A stretch of 64,000 nucleotides of DNA, taken from Planctomycetota bacterium. Its GTDB lineage: Bacteria; Planctomycetota; SZUA-567. The DNA is taken from the NCBI GenBank assembly GCA_020060765.1, contig JAGUZQ010000048.1, positions 1 through 64,000 on the forward strand, in the 5' to 3' direction. Within the stretch, counting starts at the first letter, position 1, and each line of letters begins with the position of its first letter. Of the stretch, positions 38,309 through 50,115 are shown in pieces. A model generated the notes under the pieces. That model had not been told where the DNA came from. It saw only the letters and a program-made list of their open reading frames with translations, and did not search any database. The position numbers and the translations under genes are program-made.

Positions 38309-39889
38309 TCAGGCAGGCATGGTTTTGGTGCGGTTGCGGCCTTCGCTTTTGGCGAGGCGCATCCCGTCCTCGGCTCGCCTGACCAGTTCCCGCATCTTCT
38401 CGTCGGGAGCCAGTTGGGCGACGCCGATACTGATGGTGACGCCGGTCGCCGGGGAGAAATCCTGCACCGCGACCATCTCCCGCAATTTTTCCGCCAGCAG
38501 CCCAGCGCCAGCAAGATCGGTATTAGGAATCAGGATCAGGAATTCCTCGCCGCCGTAGCGGAACAGGAAATCGCTGTCTCGGATCGCGCTTTTGATATGC
38601 CTGCCCAGTTGCCCCAGAATCTGATCGCCCCCCTCGTGGCCATGCGCGTCGTTAAGCTGCCTGAACCGGTCGATATCGACCAGCAGGATTGACAGGGGAT
38701 TCTTGTACCGTGCGGCGCGATGTATTTCCTTTTCCAGAGTCTCGTCGCATTTGTGCCGGTTCAGCGCATTGGTCAGCTTGTCGGTGGTTGCCAGCAATTC
38801 GAGTTCGTTTTCGAGTTTCCGCCGATGTTCCAGGTTGCGCACAAACACCGCCACTATTTTCTGGAGAAAATAGTCCAGCAGGCCCACTTCGTCCGAGGAG
38901 GAATTTCCCGATTCTATTTTCGGCGCTTCATTGGAGATAAAACCAGCCGTCACCTCGCGCGCGGCGCGGGTAAGTTTCGCCAGACTGGCGGAGATACGAA
39001 GAACCACCACCAGGCTCAGCAAAATGCCGAAGACAGAGACGCCAAGCAAAATGGCGCTGTTGCGATAGAGAAATGCGCTGCCGGTCGAATTTATCTCCAC
39101 GCCGGATTCGCCCATGAGCTTCCTGATATCGCGATTCAGGCTGCCTGCCAACTCCTCCGCCTCCGCGGCGCACAGTTCAGCCGCAGCGATAAAATCCTCC
39201 GGAATCTCCTCTTCGTTTACCTTCAGCAACTTGATAGCCGTCTCCATCCTGCCAGACAGCTCCGCCCCCTTGTTTTCCAACTGCCCCAAAGCCAGCGCGA
39301 ATCTGCCGTACTGCTCCCTTACTTCGGGCGTCAACCTCTTGGCTCTGGCGATAATCTCCGCGCTGCGGGCAAGTCCCTGCCTGATTTCCTGCCCGGTTTT
39401 CGTGGCGGCAGCGGTGAGGCTACGCAGGCGCGCGTCCAGATCCTCGTCGTTCCGGTGCAGACGCAGCACCTTTTCGATCAGCAGATGCTGGCGGATGACA
39501 TTGGCCTGTATCCCGCCAATTTCGTTGCCTAGCGGAAGATCGAGATCAGCCACTTCGCGCATTTTCCCAGTCAAGCGGACGGTGTGAACCGCGCTGTGAA
39601 TCAACGCTCCCGCCAGCAGGGCGAAGATCACTATCAGCAGCAGCCCGACCTTCTTGCCGATCGACCATTTCAGATTTGGTGCCGTCACCTCCGCCTTATC
39701 CCGGGTAAGATCCTCCAGTTGTTTCAGCTCGCGGTGATGCTCCTGCTCCGCCTGCATCAGCGCGGTGAACTTCAACCGCAGCTCGTCGTCGTCGACTTGG
39801 TTAATCAGGTTGCTGTAGCCCTTCATCATGCGGAGTTCCACGCTCTGCAATTCCTGCAGGTGTTCCTGGAAACTTTTTCTAGTAAACAT
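38309..39889 (-). CDS. Membrane diguanylate cyclase with N-terminal ferritin-like helices
   Basis: 526 aa. The ATG at 39889 has GGAGGG upstream and overlaps the preceding gene by 11 bases. Residues 1-60 form two helices with E48-x-x-H51, like half of a ferritin/rubrerythrin bundle. TM1 (about 81-98), a helical periplasmic sensor (100-275), TM2 (278-298) and a HAMP-like segment follow. The GGDEF domain has GGEEF (446-450) and, five residues before it, RDSD (437-440), an intact inhibitory I-site. It should make c-di-GMP from GTP and be product-inhibited. It is the last gene of the exopolysaccharide operon and the likely source of its c-di-GMP signal. Confidence 0.9.
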   Translation of the reverse strand: MFTRKSFQEHLQELQSVELRMMKGYSNLINQVDDDELRLKFTALMQAEQEHHRELKQLEDLTRDKAEVTAPNLKWSIGKKVGLLLIVIFALLAGALIHSAVHTVRLTGKMREVADLDLPLGNEIGGIQANVIRQHLLIEKVLRLHRNDEDLDARLRSLTAAATKTGQEIRQGLARSAEIIARAKRLTPEVREQYGRFALALGQLENKGAELSGRMETAIKLLKVNEEEIPEDFIAAAELCAAEAEELAGSLNRDIRKLMGESGVEINSTGSAFLYRNSAILLGVSVFGILLSLVVVLRISASLAKLTRAAREVTAGFISNEAPKIESGNSSSDEVGLLDYFLQKIVAVFVRNLEHRRKLENELELLATTDKLTNALNRHKCDETLEKEIHRAARYKNPLSILLVDIDRFRQLNDAHGHEGGDQILGQLGRHIKSAIRDSDFLFRYGGEEFLILIPNTDLAGAGLLAEKLREMVAVQDFSPATGVTISIGVAQLAPDEKMRELVRRAEDGMRLAKSEGRNRTKTMPA

Positions 39890-40118
39890 CGCGCTCACCC
39901 TCCTGCACCTGCTGGAGAATTTCTTCAAGCATCTGCTTATGCTGATCGGTCTCCTGGCCGATCCGGGTCAGGGTCTCGCGCAACCTTGCTTCCTCCTCTT
40001 CCGAAAAACCGTACCAGGGAATACTCTGTATAATATGTCGCTGGTAAATCGGATAGGCGTGCTCCTCCTCCCACATGACTTCATTGAGGCGTTGCATTAA
40101 ATCTGCCTTGCTGATCAT
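39879..40118 (-). CDS. Small half-ferritin-like helical protein
   Basis: 79 aa from an ATG (40118) with GGAG upstream. It is almost all helix: WEEEHAYPIYQRHI and IGQETDQHKQMLEEI carry the Glu/His spacing of ferritin-like or rubrerythrin-like metal sites, but only two helices are present, so a dimer would be needed to make a four-helix bundle. It sits 14 bases after the GH8 gene and overlaps the cyclase gene, whose own N-terminus has a similar two-helix segment. A redox or oxygen-sensing partner of the cyclase is possible (inference). Confidence 0.65.
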   Translation of the reverse strand: MISKADLMQRLNEVMWEEEHAYPIYQRHIIQSIPWYGFSEEEEARLRETLTRIGQETDQHKQMLEEILQQVQEGERDVY

Positions 40119-40132
40119 GTTCTGTCTCCGGT

Positions 40133-41362
40133 TTAGTACTCTCTTTCTTCCGAGGAACCGATCTTGGCGAAGGGAAACCTCTGCGCGCCGACTGCGTCGC
40201 CGAACCAGGCCCAACTGTTGACGTAATAGTCGTCGGATTCGCCGTAACCGCCGTCTTCCTCGTGGCGGAACTCCCGCAGGCGGCTGCGCAGGCGGGTTGC
40301 CAGACCCGGCTCCAGCCCGTCCAGGCACCAGGCGTACAGACCCAGCGGCGCCGGGCTTTCATAAGCCTTGGCCACGCTGCCGTCATAGTTGTATTCCAAT
40401 TGCACCTCTCCCCCCAGCAGACGCGCCGACAGGAACGGTGCCAGCCGGGAGGTCAGCAGGCGTTTGGCCTCGGCGCTGCCGCGCAGATCGTAATCCAGCC
40501 GCACGCGCCACCACAGGCGGAAAGCGTCCCAGCCCGAACTCAACCCGCGTGCTTCGGCAGGATAAAACTTGCCCGCGAGGTCGGCTTCGCACCAGTCCGG
40601 CGGAATGCCGACTCCGGTCACGTTGTCCAGCCGGGAAAGAATTTCATCCAACTGGCGGTAAGTCGCCCCGGCCAGCGCCAGCCAGCGCGAGTCCCCGGTT
40701 CTGGCGTGGAACAGGGCGTAATGCCCCGGCGAAAAGTAGGAGGGATTGATTTCGTAACGACCGGTGGCACTCGGCTTCTCTTCCGGCCAAGGCAACAGTA
40801 GAAGTTCGCCGTTTTGCAGTTCCAGCGTCTCCAGTGCGAGGATGTCAGCAGCCACAGCCCTGGCCTTGTCGGCATAATCCGCGCACCTGTCCGGCGTCTG
40901 ACCGCACCATTTCTCGGCGGCCAGGAACAGGGCAAGCGCATAATCCAGGTCGGCGTCGGAAGCGGCGTTCCAGTCGAGAATCCCCGCCTTGCCGTTCGCG
41001 CCGTTGCCGTAATGCCAGGCCAGCAGATTGTCGGCGAACTTTGCCTTGCGCGAAAGATTTTTTTCCGTCCAGCGGTAGCACGATTCGAAAGTCTCGGAGT
41101 CGTCCAGCCACAGCGCGCGCAGCATGGCGTAGGCCTGGCCTTCGCTGACCGTGTCGTTGTCGTTCCGGGGCCGGATCACGCGGCCGTTGACGATAAACTC
41201 GCGCCGGTAGCCGGCCCAGGATTTTCCCGTCAGGGAATCGGCGGGGGAGTTTTCGCCCAGGTCGATCTCGACTTCGCGCTGAAAGGCCTTGACCGCCAGC
41301 AGGATAATCGCTACCGCCACCAGCGCGAACATCACGGTATGGAGAAAGGGATTGTCCTTCAC
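40133..41362 (-). CDS. GH8 endoglucanase-like protein
   Basis: 409 aa from a GTG (41362) with GGAG upstream; it overlaps the GT2 stop by four bases. An N-terminal signal anchor (VMFALVAVAIILLAVKAF) targets it to the periplasm. SEGQAYAMLRAL carries the GH8 catalytic acid Glu, and DWNAASDADLDYALAL the conserved Asp region. Its arrangement next to a cellulose-synthase-like GT2 is that of BcsZ, which trims or edits beta-1,4-glucan during secretion. The polymer here could be cellulose or another beta-glucan. Confidence 0.88.
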   Translation of the reverse strand: MKDNPFLHTVMFALVAVAIILLAVKAFQREVEIDLGENSPADSLTGKSWAGYRREFIVNGRVIRPRNDNDTVSEGQAYAMLRALWLDDSETFESCYRWTEKNLSRKAKFADNLLAWHYGNGANGKAGILDWNAASDADLDYALALFLAAEKWCGQTPDRCADYADKARAVAADILALETLELQNGELLLLPWPEEKPSATGRYEINPSYFSPGHYALFHARTGDSRWLALAGATYRQLDEILSRLDNVTGVGIPPDWCEADLAGKFYPAEARGLSSGWDAFRLWWRVRLDYDLRGSAEAKRLLTSRLAPFLSARLLGGEVQLEYNYDGSVAKAYESPAPLGLYAWCLDGLEPGLATRLRSRLREFRHEEDGGYGESDDYYVNSWAWFGDAVGAQRFPFAKIGSSEEREY

Positions 41363-42955: not shown

Positions 42956-45217
42956 CTAAAAATCGAGCGTAAGGAAAAACTTTCCGTGGTGTTCGCGGTA
43001 GACGTCGCTTTTGTGCGTCGCCAGTTCCAATTCCACGCGGGAATTTTCCCCGAAATCGTGGCGCAGCCCCCCGGCAAAACCCAGCCCCGGCTCATGGCTT
43101 TTATCCCACGAGTATTTGGCGTCCAGAAAATAGTAGGTGCGCTTGGAACCCCAGAACAATTCGTCCTTGCTCAGGTAATGGCGCCATTCGGCGCGCACCT
43201 CCTGCGTCCAGAAATTGCCGGGAGAAAAATAGTCGTCCTTCTGTTCGGCGAATTCGTAGTATTGCCCGTAATAGCCGAGGGAAAAACTCCGGGGCGCGGG
43301 GAGAAGCTCCCAGTACGCCTCACCTCCCAACTCTTCGCGGCGGTTGCCGTCGTTGCAATAGCCCCGCTGCCCCCAGGTTTTCAGCAACGCGCTGCCGACG
43401 GGACGGAACTCCAGCGACGCGCCGTTATCGATCCGGTAAAGCCCCTCGACCAGGTTGCGGCGGTTGTCGTACTGGTCGTGACGGACGGAATACACCTCGC
43501 CCCGCAAGCGCGCGCCCGGTTGCAAGCGCAGGCGCGCGTCGTAAAGAAACTGCGCCCCCGCCTCGTCGGTCAGATTCCGCACGCCCAGTTCGATTTCCGT
43601 TTCCCAGGCGGGGCGGGAGGAATACAAGCCCCTGACGCGCAGCACGTCGGCGTCGAGATCCTCGGCTCCGCCGAAACTGTAGTTCTCGTGCGCGGCGGAA
43701 ATCCCCAGGCGCAAGTCGTCCCGCAGCCAGCGCGTCACGGAAACGCCGGACTCGTGCAGGCGGATGCCTGTCAATCTGCCCGGGCTTTTCCGCATTTCAT
43801 AATTGTATGAGGGAACCGCTACCCAGGCATGGGTGATTTGATCCACTAGTGCCAGTGCTTCCCGCGCGCGGAAATGGTTGGGGTAAATCGAAATAACTTT
43901 TTCATAGCATTGGCGCGCCTCCCGCCAGATCGACTGGTGCGAGTAAGCCTGCGCCAGGTCGAAGTGCGCCTCCAGGTTGTCCGGCTCCGCCTCGATCAGC
44001 CGCAGGTACAGCGGGATTGCCACGTGGTCGTCGCTTGCGTAATACGCCTGCTTGGCCTGCCTCTCCAGCGCCACCGCCGCGACGTCGGGGTTAGCCTCGA
44101 TGATCAGCGAGTATTCCGCCAGTGCCGCGACGTAATTCCGCGCCCAGCCGAGAGCCCGCGCCTTTTCCCGCCAGATATGCCAGTCGCGCGGCTCCCGCAC
44201 CAATAGCAGATCGTACTCCGCCAACGCCTCGGCATAAAGCTGATCCCAACTCAGCACCCGCGCCAGCCTCAGGCGGGTCTCGTCGCGCTTGTCGCCGTTA
44301 GCCAGAGTCTGCCGGTAAGATGCGGCGGCCTTGAGGTAATCCTGCTCCTCCAGCGCCAGGTCTCCCGCCAACCGGAACAGCTCGAAATCGTCGGGAGTCC
44401 TGAGCAGCAGCGCGTCCAGCCGCTCGCGCGCCAGCTTTTTCTCGCCGTGCAGATGCAGCGCGAAAATATAACTTCGCTCCAACGCCGGATCGTCGGGGTG
44501 GCTGGCCACCAGCCGCTCGTATTGCTTCATGGCCGTCTCGTACTCGTGCGCCCCCAGCGCGCAGTCGGCATAGCGCCGGATAAAATCATCGTCCTGCCCG
44601 CGCGTCTCCAGCAACACCCGATATCGCGGCAGAGCCTGAACCGGCTGGCCGTCCCAGAACAGCGCGTCAGCCAGTCTTTCGCTGAATTCCGGATTGCCCG
44701 GCTCCAGCTCCAGCAGTTTGCCAAACGCGTCCCGCACGTCGGGGAAGGACTTTCCCCACATCGCGGCATTGGCATAAGCCACCAGGTTTTCCCGGTCGTC
44801 AGGTTTGAGCTTTATCAGGCGGCGCCACAGATCGATCGCCTCCTGCGGACGCTTCAGCAGCAGCAGCAGATTGGCCGTTTCCGTCACCAGCTCCGCTTCC
44901 TGCGGACGGTTTTTGAGTTCGGCCTGCAATTCGGCCAGCGCCTGTTCCGCCTGGTCATTTGACTCCAAGGCGGAGGACAGCCGCAGGATTTGCGCGGTAG
45001 TAAGCGTCGCCCCGGCCTGCCGCAACTGGCGGTAATAACCCGCCGCTTTTTCGTATTGTTTATTATTGAAGGCTGATTCCGCCAGGCGGGTCAGAAGCTC
45101 GGTTTTCGTCACTCCGGTTTTCGCGTCGCCTTCCGCAGCGACACCTGCGCCCACCGCCGACAAAACAGTGAACAGAAACACGATAAGCGACGTAAATATG
45201 TTACGGTAAACTTTCAT
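42956..45217 (-). CDS. TPR/beta-barrel outer-membrane export protein
   Basis: 753 aa. A signal peptide (FTSLIVFLFTVLSAVGAGVAA) is followed by about ten TPR units (residues 40-470) and a C-terminal beta-barrel (about 480-753) ending in Phe (FLTLDF), as outer-membrane proteins do. This layout is that of BcsC, PgaA and AlgK/AlgE-type polysaccharide porins. It probably carries the GT2 product across the periplasm and outer membrane. Its start overlaps the upstream pseudokinase stop by four bases. Confidence 0.85.
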   Translation of the reverse strand: MKVYRNIFTSLIVFLFTVLSAVGAGVAAEGDAKTGVTKTELLTRLAESAFNNKQYEKAAGYYRQLRQAGATLTTAQILRLSSALESNDQAEQALAELQAELKNRPQEAELVTETANLLLLLKRPQEAIDLWRRLIKLKPDDRENLVAYANAAMWGKSFPDVRDAFGKLLELEPGNPEFSERLADALFWDGQPVQALPRYRVLLETRGQDDDFIRRYADCALGAHEYETAMKQYERLVASHPDDPALERSYIFALHLHGEKKLARERLDALLLRTPDDFELFRLAGDLALEEQDYLKAAASYRQTLANGDKRDETRLRLARVLSWDQLYAEALAEYDLLLVREPRDWHIWREKARALGWARNYVAALAEYSLIIEANPDVAAVALERQAKQAYYASDDHVAIPLYLRLIEAEPDNLEAHFDLAQAYSHQSIWREARQCYEKVISIYPNHFRAREALALVDQITHAWVAVPSYNYEMRKSPGRLTGIRLHESGVSVTRWLRDDLRLGISAAHENYSFGGAEDLDADVLRVRGLYSSRPAWETEIELGVRNLTDEAGAQFLYDARLRLQPGARLRGEVYSVRHDQYDNRRNLVEGLYRIDNGASLEFRPVGSALLKTWGQRGYCNDGNRREELGGEAYWELLPAPRSFSLGYYGQYYEFAEQKDDYFSPGNFWTQEVRAEWRHYLSKDELFWGSKRTYYFLDAKYSWDKSHEPGLGFAGGLRHDFGENSRVELELATHKSDVYREHHGKFFLTLDF

Positions 45218-48048
45218 TTGTCAGCCGCCGCCTCTTTCCGGCCGTGTTGCAGGCGATAAAGCTTTTCCAGCAACACCAGTTCCTGATCAGGATACCCGCT
45301 CCAAGCCGCCTCTTCCGAGGCTTGCAGCAACAGAGCTTCATCGGTTTCGAATTTTTCCGCAAGCCTTTTGTACAGCGGCCAGGCTTCCTGATGATTGCCC
45401 TCAGCCCGCAGCAGTTGCGCGAAATATTTCAGTGTCGGCCAATCTTCGGGATGCTGTTCCAGCCAGCTCCGGAACCGCTCCAGCCTGCCCTTTCCGTCCG
45501 ACGCCTTGATTTCCAGTTCCACCAGCTTCAACAATTCCTCCGCGTCCTGGGGCGTGCCTGCCCGGTTCAATAATTCCCTCGCCTTTTCGCGCTTGCCCTG
45601 CGCCACGTATATTTCCGCCAACCCGGCCAGAATCCGAATGTCGCCCGGATCGTCAAGTCCGCTGAGAATTTTCTCGGCCTCTTCCGCCTGTTTGGCCCAG
45701 ATCAGGGTCTGCGCCAGTTCGATCCGCGCCTCGCGTCCGCCGCCCAGTTCGAGCGCTTTCCTGTAATATTCTATCGCCTCTGCCGGTTTGCCTGCCCACG
45801 CATATGAGCGCGCGATTCCCAGCGCATAACGGGCACGCCCGGGAAAACGCCGCGACAGTTCCTGATAAATCCCGATAGCGTCATCGAATTTCCTCGCCCC
45901 CTGGTAAAGCGCCGCCAGGGTTTCCCTGACGCTGGTCGAGGACGGAGCCAGTTGCAGCATCCGCTGGTAACAGGCCGAAGCGGCGTCGGTTTTGTTCTGC
46001 CCCAGGCAAGCGTAGGCCAGATTTTTCCAGAGTTCCAGATTGTCCGGATCAGCCGAAAGCAGTTTGCGGAAAGCCTCTTCCGCCTGGCTGTATTTCTTCG
46101 CCCACAGCCAGGCTTTGGCGGCAGCGGTATCAGCCTCCATGCTTTTGGCCGAAGCGGCGTAACTCGCCAGCACCGCCGACGCCTGCTCGAACTCTCCCGA
46201 AGCCGCCAGGGCATCGCCATACTCTATCTGCGCAGCCGGATCGTCCGGGCGTTCTTGCAGGTAGGCGACATAATGCCGCTGGGCGTCGATGTAGTCGTTG
46301 CCGACAAAGGCGGTACGCGCCGCTTCCAGCAAGGCCGGAACCTGGGCGCGGTCACGGTCGAATAGCGCGCGGAAAGTCGCGGCGGCTTCGCGATAATTAC
46401 CCACTTCGCGCAACGTCTGCGCAACCTTCAGCACCACCCCCGGTTTATACGTCAGCTGTTCGGACTGCCGATAGGCGTTCAGCGCGGCGGGGAATTCCTT
46501 CTGCCACGCGCGCAGGTCGCCCAATTGCTCCAGCAGCGCCGGATCGCGGTTGCCAGACTTCTCGGCCAGACTGGTGGCTGCGACTTCGGCACTGGCGAAA
46601 TCGCCGCTCCATTCGCCCACGGTCACAAGCCTCCGGAGAAGACCATCATCGCCGGGTTTGACCTTGAGTCCTTTTTTTAAAGCCGTGATCGCTCCGGCCA
46701 GGTCGCCCTTCTCCGCCAATAGGCTGGCCTTGTTCATATAAGCGCGGTGGCGCTGTGTATGGTGATAGTACCAACTCAAAGCCAGTGCCATCACCAGCAA
46801 CACGGCAAACGGCGCGAGGTTGCGCCTGAAAGCCAAGGCCAGTCCGAATCCGGCAGGCGCCTGCGTGACCGCAGGTTGCGGCCTGTCGCCAGGGAGTTGC
46901 GAATCTTCCACGAATTTTTCCTGGTACTCACGCACCGATTTTTCGTAATCCGCCGCCAGGCGCTCGTCGGCATTGACCCGGCGCAGAAAACTGTGAAAGT
47001 CCTTTTCCAGTTCCTCCGCGTTCTGGTAGCGCGCGTCCTCCTCGACTTCCAACATCCGGGAAATAATCGCGCTGAGGAAAGGGTGCAGGTGCGCGACCAG
47101 GCTGGAGGCCTCGACCGGCTTCTCCCGGCTGATAGAGACAATCACTTCCGCCAGACTGTTACCCACGTGCGGCGGGCGACCGACCATCGCGTGGTAGAGC
47201 GTCGCGCCCAGGCTATAGATATCGCTGCGAAAATCTGCCGGTCTCTCGTTCAGCGCCTGCTCCGGGGAAATATAAAAAGGAACGTTAGGCACTTCCTCCA
47301 GTAATTTTTCCGAATTCGCCAGAGGGTTACGCATGATACCATAACCGCAAAGCTTCACCACCCCTTCAGCGGTAATCAGGATATTGGAGGGGCGGATCGC
47401 GCCGTGCACGAATTTCATTTTTTCCAGATACTTCAGCGCCACCAGCAGCTGCAGCGCGATCTGCACCACCCACGGCCACGGCAGCCGTTCCTCCTCGGCG
47501 ATGAGCCGGTGCAGGCTGGTGCCGGGAAAATATTCCGCCGCGTAATAAGCCTGGCCTTCGATCCTTCCCACCGTCAGCACGCGTTGCAGATTTTTCCCGC
47601 CCAGTTTTTTCGCGTGTTCCGCATGCCGGAAAAAATAACGCGCCTCTTCCGGTGTCAGTTCCCCCATCGACTCAGCCTGCATCCGCAGAATCACCCTGGC
47701 GCCAGTCGCCAGGTGCCTGGCGTCATAGGAAAAACCGAACGCGTCGGAACCCAGCGAACCCAGTATCCTGAATTGCGCGAGTTCTTCGCTGGCGGCTATC
47801 TTTTCCGGGGGAAGAGAAGTTCTTTTTGCATCAGGCTTGACGGACGGCGGGCGCTTCCGCAACGCCTCTTCCAATTGCGTCGCGGCGAGATAACCCCTGC
47901 TGACCAGCAGTTCCCCCAGTTGCGGCGGAGTAACGCCAGACTGGCGGAGCCGGGTCTGCTCCTCTAGGCATTCCTGCAGTTGCGCCGGCGAAATAACTTT
48001 CTTCTCCAGTAGCACCCGCCCCAGTAATTTTGCTTTGACACTTGGCAT
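45214..48048 (-). CDS. MshEN-like/pseudokinase/TPR membrane protein
   Basis: 944 aa and the first gene of the exopolysaccharide operon. Residues 8-31 and 43-66 are two 24-residue motifs of the form xLGxxLLxxxxIxxxxLxxxLxxQ, as in MshEN (c-di-GMP-binding GspE_N) domains; the leading Arg is Leu8 and Gln43. Residues 90-355 fold like a Ser/Thr kinase, but the VAIK Lys is R122, HRD is H215-G-A217 and DFG is G235-Y-G. With no catalytic residues it is a pseudokinase; Asn222 and the SPE and SDIYSLG structural motifs remain. A TM helix (411-428) leads to about 12 TPRs that should lie in the periplasm. A c-di-GMP receptor that signals to the export apparatus is the best inference. Confidence 0.85.
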   Translation of the reverse strand: MPSVKAKLLGRVLLEKKVISPAQLQECLEEQTRLRQSGVTPPQLGELLVSRGYLAATQLEEALRKRPPSVKPDAKRTSLPPEKIAASEELAQFRILGSLGSDAFGFSYDARHLATGARVILRMQAESMGELTPEEARYFFRHAEHAKKLGGKNLQRVLTVGRIEGQAYYAAEYFPGTSLHRLIAEEERLPWPWVVQIALQLLVALKYLEKMKFVHGAIRPSNILITAEGVVKLCGYGIMRNPLANSEKLLEEVPNVPFYISPEQALNERPADFRSDIYSLGATLYHAMVGRPPHVGNSLAEVIVSISREKPVEASSLVAHLHPFLSAIISRMLEVEEDARYQNAEELEKDFHSFLRRVNADERLAADYEKSVREYQEKFVEDSQLPGDRPQPAVTQAPAGFGLALAFRRNLAPFAVLLVMALALSWYYHHTQRHRAYMNKASLLAEKGDLAGAITALKKGLKVKPGDDGLLRRLVTVGEWSGDFASAEVAATSLAEKSGNRDPALLEQLGDLRAWQKEFPAALNAYRQSEQLTYKPGVVLKVAQTLREVGNYREAAATFRALFDRDRAQVPALLEAARTAFVGNDYIDAQRHYVAYLQERPDDPAAQIEYGDALAASGEFEQASAVLASYAASAKSMEADTAAAKAWLWAKKYSQAEEAFRKLLSADPDNLELWKNLAYACLGQNKTDAASACYQRMLQLAPSSTSVRETLAALYQGARKFDDAIGIYQELSRRFPGRARYALGIARSYAWAGKPAEAIEYYRKALELGGGREARIELAQTLIWAKQAEEAEKILSGLDDPGDIRILAGLAEIYVAQGKREKARELLNRAGTPQDAEELLKLVELEIKASDGKGRLERFRSWLEQHPEDWPTLKYFAQLLRAEGNHQEAWPLYKRLAEKFETDEALLLQASEEAAWSGYPDQELVLLEKLYRLQHGRKEAAADK

Positions 48049-48097: not shown

Positions 48098-48125
48098 ATT
48101 CTAGCACGTTGCCAGCGCCGGTCAA
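48098..48125 (-). promoter_or_regulatory. Promoter of the exopolysaccharide operon
   Basis: The minus strand has TTGACC (48120-48125), a 16-base spacer and TAGAAT (48098-48103), about 50 bases before the ATG at 48048. Confidence 0.55.
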
Positions 48126-48229: not shown

Positions 48230-48853
48230 ATGGCTTTGGCCGTTGAACAGACCAGCCCGGAACCGGAAGAGGAAGAGCGCCTGCTCACGGCCTATGCCCT
48301 CGGCGACCGGGAAGCGTTTACACAGCTGGTCGGCTTGATCGGCTCCCGGTTATACGGGTTTGTCTGCCGGTTTTTGCGTGACGCCTGCCTGGCTGAAGAT
48401 GTGTATCAGGAAATCCTGGTCAAGCTGGCGAAAAACGCCTCCGGCTTCGACCGCCGGGCAAAGTTCAACACCTGGCTGTACCGCATCGCGCGCAACGCCT
48501 GTCTGGACGAGTTGAGAAAGAAAAAGCGCGGTAAGACCCTGAATATTGATAATCCTGACGACCGGCGGGAAAACGGACTGGAAACGCTGCCCTCTGACAC
48601 CCCGCCCCCCGACGAGCGCGCGACCATGGCGGAGTTGGGAAAGAAAATCGCCGAGGCAGTCGCCAATCTGCCGGAAGAACAGCGGGAAGTGTTTCTGCTG
48701 AAGGAAGACGGCGGCCTGACGTTCGCGGAAATAGCCGAGACTCTCGGCTGCGGATTGGAGACGGTGAAAAGCCGGATGCGCTATGCGCTGGCGCGGTTAC
48801 GCAGCGCCCTGGCGCGGGAGGCGCGGTTGTTTGGAATGGCGGATAAGATATGA
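48230..48853 (+). CDS. ECF-family RNA polymerase sigma factor
   Basis: 207 aa. Region 2 (LAEDVYQEILVKLAKNASGF, FNTWLYRIARNACLDELRKK) binds core polymerase and the -10 element; region 4 (LPEEQREVFLLKEDGGLTF, EIAETLGCGLETVKSRMRYA) binds the -35. A proline-rich linker separates them. It is translationally coupled to the next gene by an ATGA overlap, the usual layout of an ECF sigma factor and its membrane antagonist. The divergent exopolysaccharide operon may be one target, but no shared promoter motif was identified. Confidence 0.92.
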   Translation: MALAVEQTSPEPEEEERLLTAYALGDREAFTQLVGLIGSRLYGFVCRFLRDACLAEDVYQEILVKLAKNASGFDRRAKFNTWLYRIARNACLDELRKKKRGKTLNIDNPDDRRENGLETLPSDTPPPDERATMAELGKKIAEAVANLPEEQREVFLLKEDGGLTFAEIAETLGCGLETVKSRMRYALARLRSALAREARLFGMADKI

Positions 48854-50115
48854 AACCGGAAAATGAAAACCGCATTCTCGATTGTCTTTACGGCGAACCC
48901 GGTGACGGTTCCGGCGCGCCCGGTTTTTCCGCCGAGGAATTGCGCGAGGCGGAAGACCTGCAGAAAATACTCTCTGCTTATCGCGCATTGCCCTGCCCTA
49001 CCCCACCATCTGGAGCGACGGAAAAAGCGCTGATGCTGGCGGAAAGTTCCTCTTCGGCGAAAGTGACAACCTTGCCCCCGCGCCGCTTCATTTTCCATCC
49101 GTTCTGGGGAGTGGCGGCGCTGTTCGTGGTCGTGTGCACGCTGCTGTATACCATGCCGGAACGCGTGGAACAAAAAACGAAAACTTTCGACACGCGCAAT
49201 TTCGAGCAACCCGCTCCCGCCGATGCACCGGACATGAATGAAGCGTTAGAAAAGAGAAACGAAGCGAAACCGTCTGCCATTGTAACGAAATCCGTCGCGG
49301 AGGATGAGGAAAGGGATCGAGATAATCTCAAAATTACCGCCGACCAAGCCCCGCCCGCCGCACCCATGCGTAGGGGCATGGCCGAAGGCAAAGGCGGAGG
49401 CGGTTTCGGCGAACTAAGAGAAGAGGCCAATGGCTTGCGGACGCTGGCCGATGCCAAACACGACGGCAAAGACGCAATGGCCGCCGCCGACAAGTCGCCG
49501 GAACTGAAACGCGACCGGGACGACAGGGCATCCGCCATGCCTGAACTGGCGATAGCGGCGGAGAAGGCGGAAAGTGTTGCCGCGCAAAACGCCGTGAAGA
49601 AAACCCGACAGCCGGTTCTTGGGATTCCGGCAGAACAGGAAAAAACCGTACCTATCGCCGGTGCAGTTCAGGCGGAACCGAAGGCGTTGCGCAAGGCCAA
49701 GGAGGAAAAAAAGCGGGCTGAACCGAAAGATGAGATTGATGAACTAGCAGATCGGGAAGTTGGAAAAAGCGCCTTGCCGACGCCAAGGTTGACCGCTGAG
49801 TCTGCTAAATTGGCGGAAGCCGTAGCGACTGCGAGATATGCCGAAGTAGTGCGCCTGTTGGGGCAGAAGGATTACACCGGCTGTTTGCGTCTCAGCGACA
49901 GGTTGCTCGCGAATTTGGAGAAACCAGCGGAAAATGCCGTGAAGTCTTCTGCGCCGGAAGACAGAGTCATCTTGCTGTCACTCAAGGCCAGATGTGAAAT
50001 CGAACTTGGCACGGTTGCCGCCGCAAAACAGACGCTCGACCTTTTGCGCGCCGTCTCGCCCGAAAACGCCGCCTTGCTGGAACGCGAATACGCAGATAAA
50101 CTCGCCGGTCAGTAG
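48850..50115 (+). CDS. Membrane protein, probable anti-sigma factor
   Basis: 421 aa. The N-terminus (ENRILDCLYGEPGD ... EDLQKILSAYRALP) is a short helical cytoplasmic part, followed by one TM helix (FWGVAALFVVVCTLLYTM, about 84-101). A long charged, low-complexity periplasmic stretch follows, and a TPR-like C-terminus (about 320-421, CLRLSDRLLANL, ARCEIELGTVAAAKQTLDLL). No canonical zinc-binding ZAS HxxxCxxC is visible. Position and topology suggest it holds the ECF sigma factor at the membrane until a cell-envelope signal arrives (inference). Confidence 0.7.
   Translation: MKPENENRILDCLYGEPGDGSGAPGFSAEELREAEDLQKILSAYRALPCPTPPSGATEKALMLAESSSSAKVTTLPPRRFIFHPFWGVAALFVVVCTLLYTMPERVEQKTKTFDTRNFEQPAPADAPDMNEALEKRNEAKPSAIVTKSVAEDEERDRDNLKITADQAPPAAPMRRGMAEGKGGGGFGELREEANGLRTLADAKHDGKDAMAAADKSPELKRDRDDRASAMPELAIAAEKAESVAAQNAVKKTRQPVLGIPAEQEKTVPIAGAVQAEPKALRKAKEEKKRAEPKDEIDELADREVGKSALPTPRLTAESAKLAEAVATARYAEVVRLLGQKDYTGCLRLSDRLLANLEKPAENAVKSSAPEDRVILLSLKARCEIELGTVAAAKQTLDLLRAVSPENAALLEREYADKLAGQ

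Follow-up and report, generated by a model that had tools for sequence, protein, structure and literature searches.

The first gene of a putative exopolysaccharide operon in a Planctomycetota genome encodes P0001, a protein of 944 amino acid residues in which an MshEN-like domain and a pseudokinase are followed by a predicted transmembrane (TM) helix and TPRs. We read P0001 as a TM-TPR subunit in the inner membrane, belonging to a cellulose-like polysaccharide synthase, that would carry an added cytoplasmic head, composed of the MshEN-like domain and the dead kinase, and we consider the chances of this reading to be evenly balanced. The gene lies on the minus strand of the window (the whole analysed stretch of 64,000 nucleotides), where its frame runs from position 48048 down to 45214. 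The open frame measures 954 residues against the 944 of the protein; it is closed some ten codons before the start by an in-frame stop, which leaves no room for further motifs at the N-terminus.

The MshEN-like domain (positions 47851-48027, minus strand) consists of two 24-residue motifs, motif I at residues 8-31 (LLGRVLLEKKVISPAQLQECLEEQ) and motif II at residues 43-66 (QLGELLVSRGYLAATQLEEALRKR). The sequence-only reading that preceded this analysis had placed both motifs correctly and had overlooked K17, R66 and the spacer. The published MshEN consensus is RLGxx(L/V/I)2xxG(L/V/I)2xxxxLxxxLxxQ, present twice with a 5-residue spacer (PMC5013675). The spacer in P0001 has 11 residues, which is typical of the MshEN-pseudokinase family described below. 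Residues 1-70 score 49.7 bits with NF053729, the NCBI curated model of the MshE-related c-di-GMP motif, and thus pass its cut-off of 38. The Pfam MshEN model PF05157 gave no match to P0001 in a search of contig C68, a failure probably due to the missing C-terminal half of the MshEN domain; PF05157 was rejected as a membership test, as it misses the short, 11-spaced form.

A first Foldseek run with a model of residues 1-375 was dominated by the kinase, and the first 70 residues were therefore folded separately. AlphaFold2, supplied with 43 homologous motif pairs, predicted four helices (pLDDT 79.9), the fold of the N-terminal subdomain of MshEN. The best PDB match of this model was MshE with c-di-GMP (5htl_B, probability 1.00, rmsd 1.2 A over 57 columns), PilF GSPII-A was also among the best matches, and c-di-GMP-bound structures of PilF GSPII-B stood lower in the list (rmsd 1.1-1.8 A), all with E-values above 0.1, which are weak as expected for a 70-residue query. 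A profile search of PDB sequences also matched 5htl and PilF; matches to PPR proteins in the same search were discarded as helical-repeat noise. Profile comparison with a GspE-type MshEN domain of the same genome produced no useful alignment, probably owing to a wrong frame or subdomain. With motif sequence, predicted fold and top matches in agreement, the assignment of residues 1-70 to the MshEN-type fold is firm. The domain thus deserves the name MshEN-like that it had received from its sequence, with the qualification, missed at that time, that the C-terminal subdomain is absent.

Residues 89-356 (positions 46981-47784, minus strand) match the Pfam Pkinase model PF00069 with 86 bits. The model of residues 1-375, built with 36 homologues, is confident (pLDDT 89.6), and Foldseek retrieves PknB and related kinases with an E-value of 1e-20, so that the kinase fold is unambiguous from both profile and predicted structure. 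As had been claimed earlier, arginine replaces the VAIK lysine (R122), alanine the HRD aspartate (A217) and glycine the DFG aspartate (G235). By these residues P0001 is a Hanks-type pseudokinase, predicted to be catalytically dead.

The predicted TM helix covers approximately residues 405-429 (positions 46762-46836, minus strand). Its hydropathy is only moderate (best 19-residue value 1.59), and it is followed directly by a juxtamembrane TQ motif at residues 431-432, a motif shared with orthologues in a sister genus and with TM-TPR proteins of Omnitrophota. TPRs recognized by many Pfam models extend from the TM helix to the C-terminal end (positions 45217-46761, minus strand), and they would be located on the periplasmic side. 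The proposed succession of a TM helix and TPRs was therefore recovered.

P0001 is the first of six tightly packed genes on the minus strand, the others encoding P0002, a GT2 synthase, a GH8 enzyme, a 79-residue product and a diguanylate cyclase, in keeping with the place at the head of an exopolysaccharide operon that it had been given earlier; their spacing suggests that the six genes are co-transcribed. A possible sigma-70-like promoter (48098-48125, minus strand) is a consensus match only. P0002 (42956-45217, 753 residues), whose start codon overlaps the stop codon of P0001 (ATGA), matches TPR models and is a putative export porin, its C-terminal beta-barrel being predicted from position and from a layout like that of PgaA and BcsC. 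Ten bases after P0002 starts the gene for the BcsA-like GT2 synthase P0004 (41359-42945, 528 residues), which has the motifs DAD, TED, QQWRW and FGITQK and scores 232 bits with the CelA model TIGR03030, far below the cut-off of 699. Neither the Pfam search nor inspection of motifs revealed a PilZ domain in P0004, and with no Pfam match to PilZ the reading of P0004 as a PilZ-controlled GT2 was rejected. The GTG start of the gene for a BcsZ-like GH8 endoglucanase with an N-terminal TM segment (40133-41362; PF01270, 130 bits; PRK11097) overlaps the GT2 stop. Next come the 79-residue ORF (39879-40118), which begins with MISKADLMQRL and overlaps the cyclase gene, and the cyclase itself (38309-39889), which combines an N-terminal helical part, a TM segment, a HAMP-like region and a GGDEF domain (PF00990, 134 bits) with an intact GGEEF motif and an RDSD I-site.

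Two observations concern the surroundings of these genes. The 79-residue ORF resembles a short helical bundle, as does the N-terminal part of the cyclase (39650-39889, minus strand), and an ORF that follows GT2 and GH8 at another locus (L059:4065-4556) has a similar start (MFTKAEYAHYFQ). Just upstream of the operon, positions 48230-50115 of the plus strand encode a divergent ECF sigma factor together with the 421-residue product of an overlapping gene, both possible regulators.

When 392 genomes of the phylum were searched for the GT2, it was present in six, all belonging to the window's own family. An orthologue of P0001 stands upstream in all four GT2-bearing genomes of the sister genus in which the upstream region is visible; in the sixth GT2-bearing genome the contig stops before this position. 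The search for the same domain order beside GT2 genes, proposed together with the sequence-only reading, was thus successful at four loci. The orthologues are 27% identical to P0001 over the whole length, TM helix and TQ motif included, and have six MshEN motifs instead of two, followed by the pseudokinase, the TM helix and the TPRs. Porin, GT2 and GH8 follow in the same order as in the window. An additional gene, with a 583-residue product (L045:3809-5560), is found in two of the four genomes between those for the MshEN-pseudokinase protein and the porin. In another respect one of the four genomes (L048/L055) differs, a stop codon breaking the orthologue just after the TM helix. Homologues in the same operon place with kinase catalytic residues had been named in advance as evidence against the pseudokinase interpretation, which withstood this check: all four sister pseudokinases lack the VAIK lysine and the DFG aspartate and keep the HRD aspartate. 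No GGDEF cyclase gene turned up in the retrieved flanks of the other GT2 loci, and we therefore rejected the cyclase as a conserved part of the operon within the flanks examined.

We also scanned 84,980 species for this GT2 family, which yielded 75 loci. The combination of MshEN and kinase is confined to the four sister loci, and the head is absent from the other 71. In Omnitrophota, Desulfobacterota and other lineages a short TM-TPR segment having almost no cytoplasmic part often precedes the porin or forms its beginning. The Omnitrophota forms carry the TQ motif directly after the TM helix, as do P0001 (YHHTQRHRAYMNKA) and its sister orthologues (YKTTQSSHGLMVRA), so that P0001 resembles these bare subunits in both motif and position. 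Our reading of these sequences is that TM-TPR is a conserved inner-membrane subunit and the MshEN-pseudokinase head an add-on. Where the segment and the porin form a single ORF (e.g. L058, 813 residues), the segment may be a signal peptide. The regulators attached to the GT2 loci seem to differ between lineages. Some GT2 proteins of Omnitrophota, about 610 residues long (L062:9983-11818, L058, L063, L074), have a C-terminal extension of 100 residues resembling a small beta domain; it has no Pfam match and is possibly a divergent PilZ. A stand-alone PilZ-like protein is encoded near the GT2 in Desulfobacterota (L087:4209-5015 and L091:16370-17179, the latter on the minus strand), and a HATPase_c_2 protein upstream at one locus of Chlamydiae (L103:8469-8909).

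The head of P0001 belongs to a larger group of proteins. Searching the 392 genomes with a profile of seven kinase domains of this kind, we obtained top scores (276-407 bits) mostly from MshEN-pseudokinase proteins; ordinary kinases scored about 270 bits or less and occurred in nearly all genomes. Since no wide gap separates the scores, the family was delimited by residues. We sampled 93 distinct domains, of which 33 are without the DFG aspartate and 60 have it. An MshEN-like motif pair precedes all 33 domains of the first set, with both motif glycines in 31 and the glycines plus both glutamines in 18; the corresponding counts for the 60 kinases are 42, 15 and 5. The difference in glycines (Fisher test, 4e-11) is uncorrected for phylogeny, and it applies to domains that were chosen by similarity to the pseudokinases and to an MshEN model built from the same families. 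In this sample dead kinases go with intact MshEN and live kinases with mostly degenerate MshEN, which would give the dead kinase a role beyond this operon. In a phylogenetic tree 59 of the 60 kinases fall on one side of a branch (support 100/99) and the pseudokinases on the other, and P0001 groups with its sister orthologues (98/74) on long branches. By its sequences, the MshEN-pseudokinase group is a distinct family in Planctomycetota, with the typical signature HGD(I/V)RPSN and (S/A)(G/N)LG (loci L010-L038 and L140-L209). Most members keep the VAIK lysine and the HRD aspartate (HGD) and have lost only the DFG aspartate; P0001 and P0006, its paralogue in this genome, rank with the most degenerate members.

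Three further features of these proteins were noted. One member inside the pseudokinase clade (L177) has an aspartate at the DFG position (LTDLG) and keeps HGD, the aspartate being either retained or regained. Ordinary kinases of Planctomycetota often have a degenerate MshEN-like N-terminus. P0006 (L050:616-2193, minus strand, contig C119) consists of an MshEN pair, a pseudokinase (VILR, HQE, AFG) and a TM segment, with no TPRs.

What, then, does the MshEN-like domain bind? A role for c-di-GMP is plausible for the family and doubtful for P0001 itself. Motif I of P0001 has L8, G10, K17 in place of glycine, and Q31; motif II has Q43 in place of arginine, G45, G52, and R66 in place of glutamine. 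The full set of key residues (R, K or L at position 1, Gly3, Gly10 and Gln24 in each motif) is thus incomplete. K17 alone says little, because K, R or H is common at this position throughout the pseudokinase family. The first arginine is indeed changed in each motif, as the sequence-only reading had pointed out. This is a smaller obstacle to binding than was supposed, since PilF GSPII-B accepts leucine or lysine at position 1 with an affinity that is even raised, to 6 nM (PMC11731258). The N-terminal subdomain of MshE is by itself enough for binding c-di-GMP, at 350 nM (PMC11731258). More serious are R66 and the missing 5-residue spacing between motifs, which make binding by P0001 doubtful. 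In PilF GSPII-A comparable losses go together with a failure to bind: histidine and arginine occupy the two glutamine positions and serine position 1 of motif II, and restoring these positions was necessary and not sufficient to regain binding (PMC12002112). The sister orthologues have motif spacings alternating as 11, 5, 11, 5 or 6, and 11, and their 5-spaced pair of motifs 2 and 3 (KLG..Q and LIG..Q) aligns with PilF GSPII-B, sharing its K and L at position 1. P0001 matches only sister motifs 3 and 4, the latter likewise without the last glutamine (K there). Gly3 and Gln24 are conserved in both motifs of the paralogue P0006, which is, by its residues, a better candidate for c-di-GMP binding than P0001.

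This pattern lends some weight to the alternative that the head of P0001 does not bind c-di-GMP and is a docking platform for GT2, the cyclase or P0006, a tentative possibility that falls short of probable. R66, Q43 and the single, 11-spaced pair in P0001 speak for it, as do the canonical sister motifs 2 and 3 beside a motif 4 that has lost its glutamine, and the Gly3 and Gln24 residues of P0006; against it, the fold of P0001 still matches ligand-bound MshE, the cut-off of the c-di-GMP motif model is passed, and G10, Q31 and G45 are retained. A second alternative, which we hold to be improbable, is that there is more to the kinase fold than a dead enzyme and that nucleotide binding or a non-canonical transfer provides the signal. 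It would fit the majority of family members, in which only the DFG aspartate is lost, and the published bacterial pseudokinases, some of which are predicted to bind ATP (PMC12599244), but P0001 lacks all three residues and its sister orthologues two. Decay of the gene under relaxed selection, with no function left, is very improbable: the joint loss of several key residues, the 27% identity between orthologues and the stop in one sister copy would agree with it, but the frame of P0001 is open over 944 residues with overlapping neighbours, and architecture and operon place are kept in the sister genus despite the divergence.

We return to a c-di-GMP-responsive head on a synthase-dependent exopolysaccharide machine, attached to its inner-membrane TM-TPR subunit, an explanation that, taken as a whole, we regard as equally open to being right or wrong. 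c-di-GMP, supplied at least partly by the operon's own cyclase, would alter the state of the MshEN/pseudokinase head, which would act by binding and conformation, not by phosphorylation. Its target would be the neighbouring PilZ-less GT2 and/or, via the TM helix, the route along the periplasmic TPRs to the porin. We infer complex formation, contact with the GT2, the part of c-di-GMP as ligand and control, and the direction of that control. The explanation is favoured by the domains and the MshEN fold of P0001, a GT2 without PilZ, the intact GGEEF cyclase in the operon, the gene order of the sister operons, the bare TM-TPR proteins at loci that lack the head, the distinctness of the MshEN-pseudokinase family and the precedent of NfrB, and is weakened by K17, Q43, R66, the missing 5-spaced pair, the moderate TM hydropathy and the failure to find the cyclase in the flanks of the other loci. 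Slightly under even, in our estimate, stands the broader proposal that Planctomycetota possess a family of c-di-GMP receptors whose MshEN array would signal through a fused pseudokinase, a relay that needs no catalysis, and that one planctomycete family has placed such a receptor on the TM-TPR subunit of its PilZ-less, cellulose-like synthase.

That this fusion also stands at the head of the operon in four related genomes suggests a previously undescribed means of turning on polysaccharide export. If this is true, a receptor on a TM-TPR scaffold, relayed through a dead kinase, would be another solution to c-di-GMP control, with the TM-TPR subunit, not the synthase, as the point from which the messenger controls export. 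Bacterial pseudokinases, the functions of which are to our knowledge mostly unknown, would thereby be given a concrete, testable job.

Published descriptions touch on parts of this arrangement. Fusions of MshEN to Ser/Thr kinase domains were mentioned in general terms by Wang et al. in 2016; the passages in question say nothing of the pseudokinase state, the fusion to TM-TPR or the synthase operon (PMC5013675). The pseudokinase families ActPs1-3, GLW, CP1, DYD and DLHK are also Hanks-type and some are membrane-anchored, but the GLW, CP1, DYD and DLHK signatures do not fit P0001, and the review from 2025 that covers these Ser/Thr pseudokinases of bacteria makes no mention of Planctomycetes, c-di-GMP or TPR (PMC12599244). 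A study of Planctomycetota kinases makes no mention of MshEN, GspE or pseudokinases, and a literature search of freely accessible main texts found nothing joining a pseudokinase with MshEN or, in such a role, with c-di-GMP.

Synthase-dependent polysaccharides are controlled by c-di-GMP through PilZ (Bcs, Alg44), through a degenerate GGDEF domain (PelD), through PgaCD and through MshEN on a GT2 (NfrB). With Bcs the operon shares a BcsA-like GT2 having an FxVTxK-type gating motif (FGITQK), a BcsC-like TPR porin and a GH8 enzyme corresponding to BcsZ; it differs in that the GT2 has no PilZ and scores far below the CelA cut-off, and no BcsB is found among the six genes. In the Pel system, PelE is a TM-TPR subunit beside PelD. 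PelD resembles the proposed head in being a degenerate enzyme fold, in this case GGDEF, that acts as a cytoplasmic c-di-GMP receptor (PMC8461298). The domains are unrelated, however, PelF is a GT4, and the Pel receptor and TPR are separate proteins. The NFR system of E. coli and other Proteobacteria (NfrB-NfrA-YbcH) has an MshEN-controlled GT2, NfrB, which is a fusion of GT2 to MshEN activated by c-di-GMP, together with a TPR outer-membrane porin, a TM-anchored periplasmic protein and sometimes an adjacent cyclase gene (PMC8669469). Here GH8 is present as well and P0004 ends at 528 residues without MshEN, so that the domain carried by the GT2 in NFR is found instead on the TM-TPR subunit, joined to a pseudokinase.
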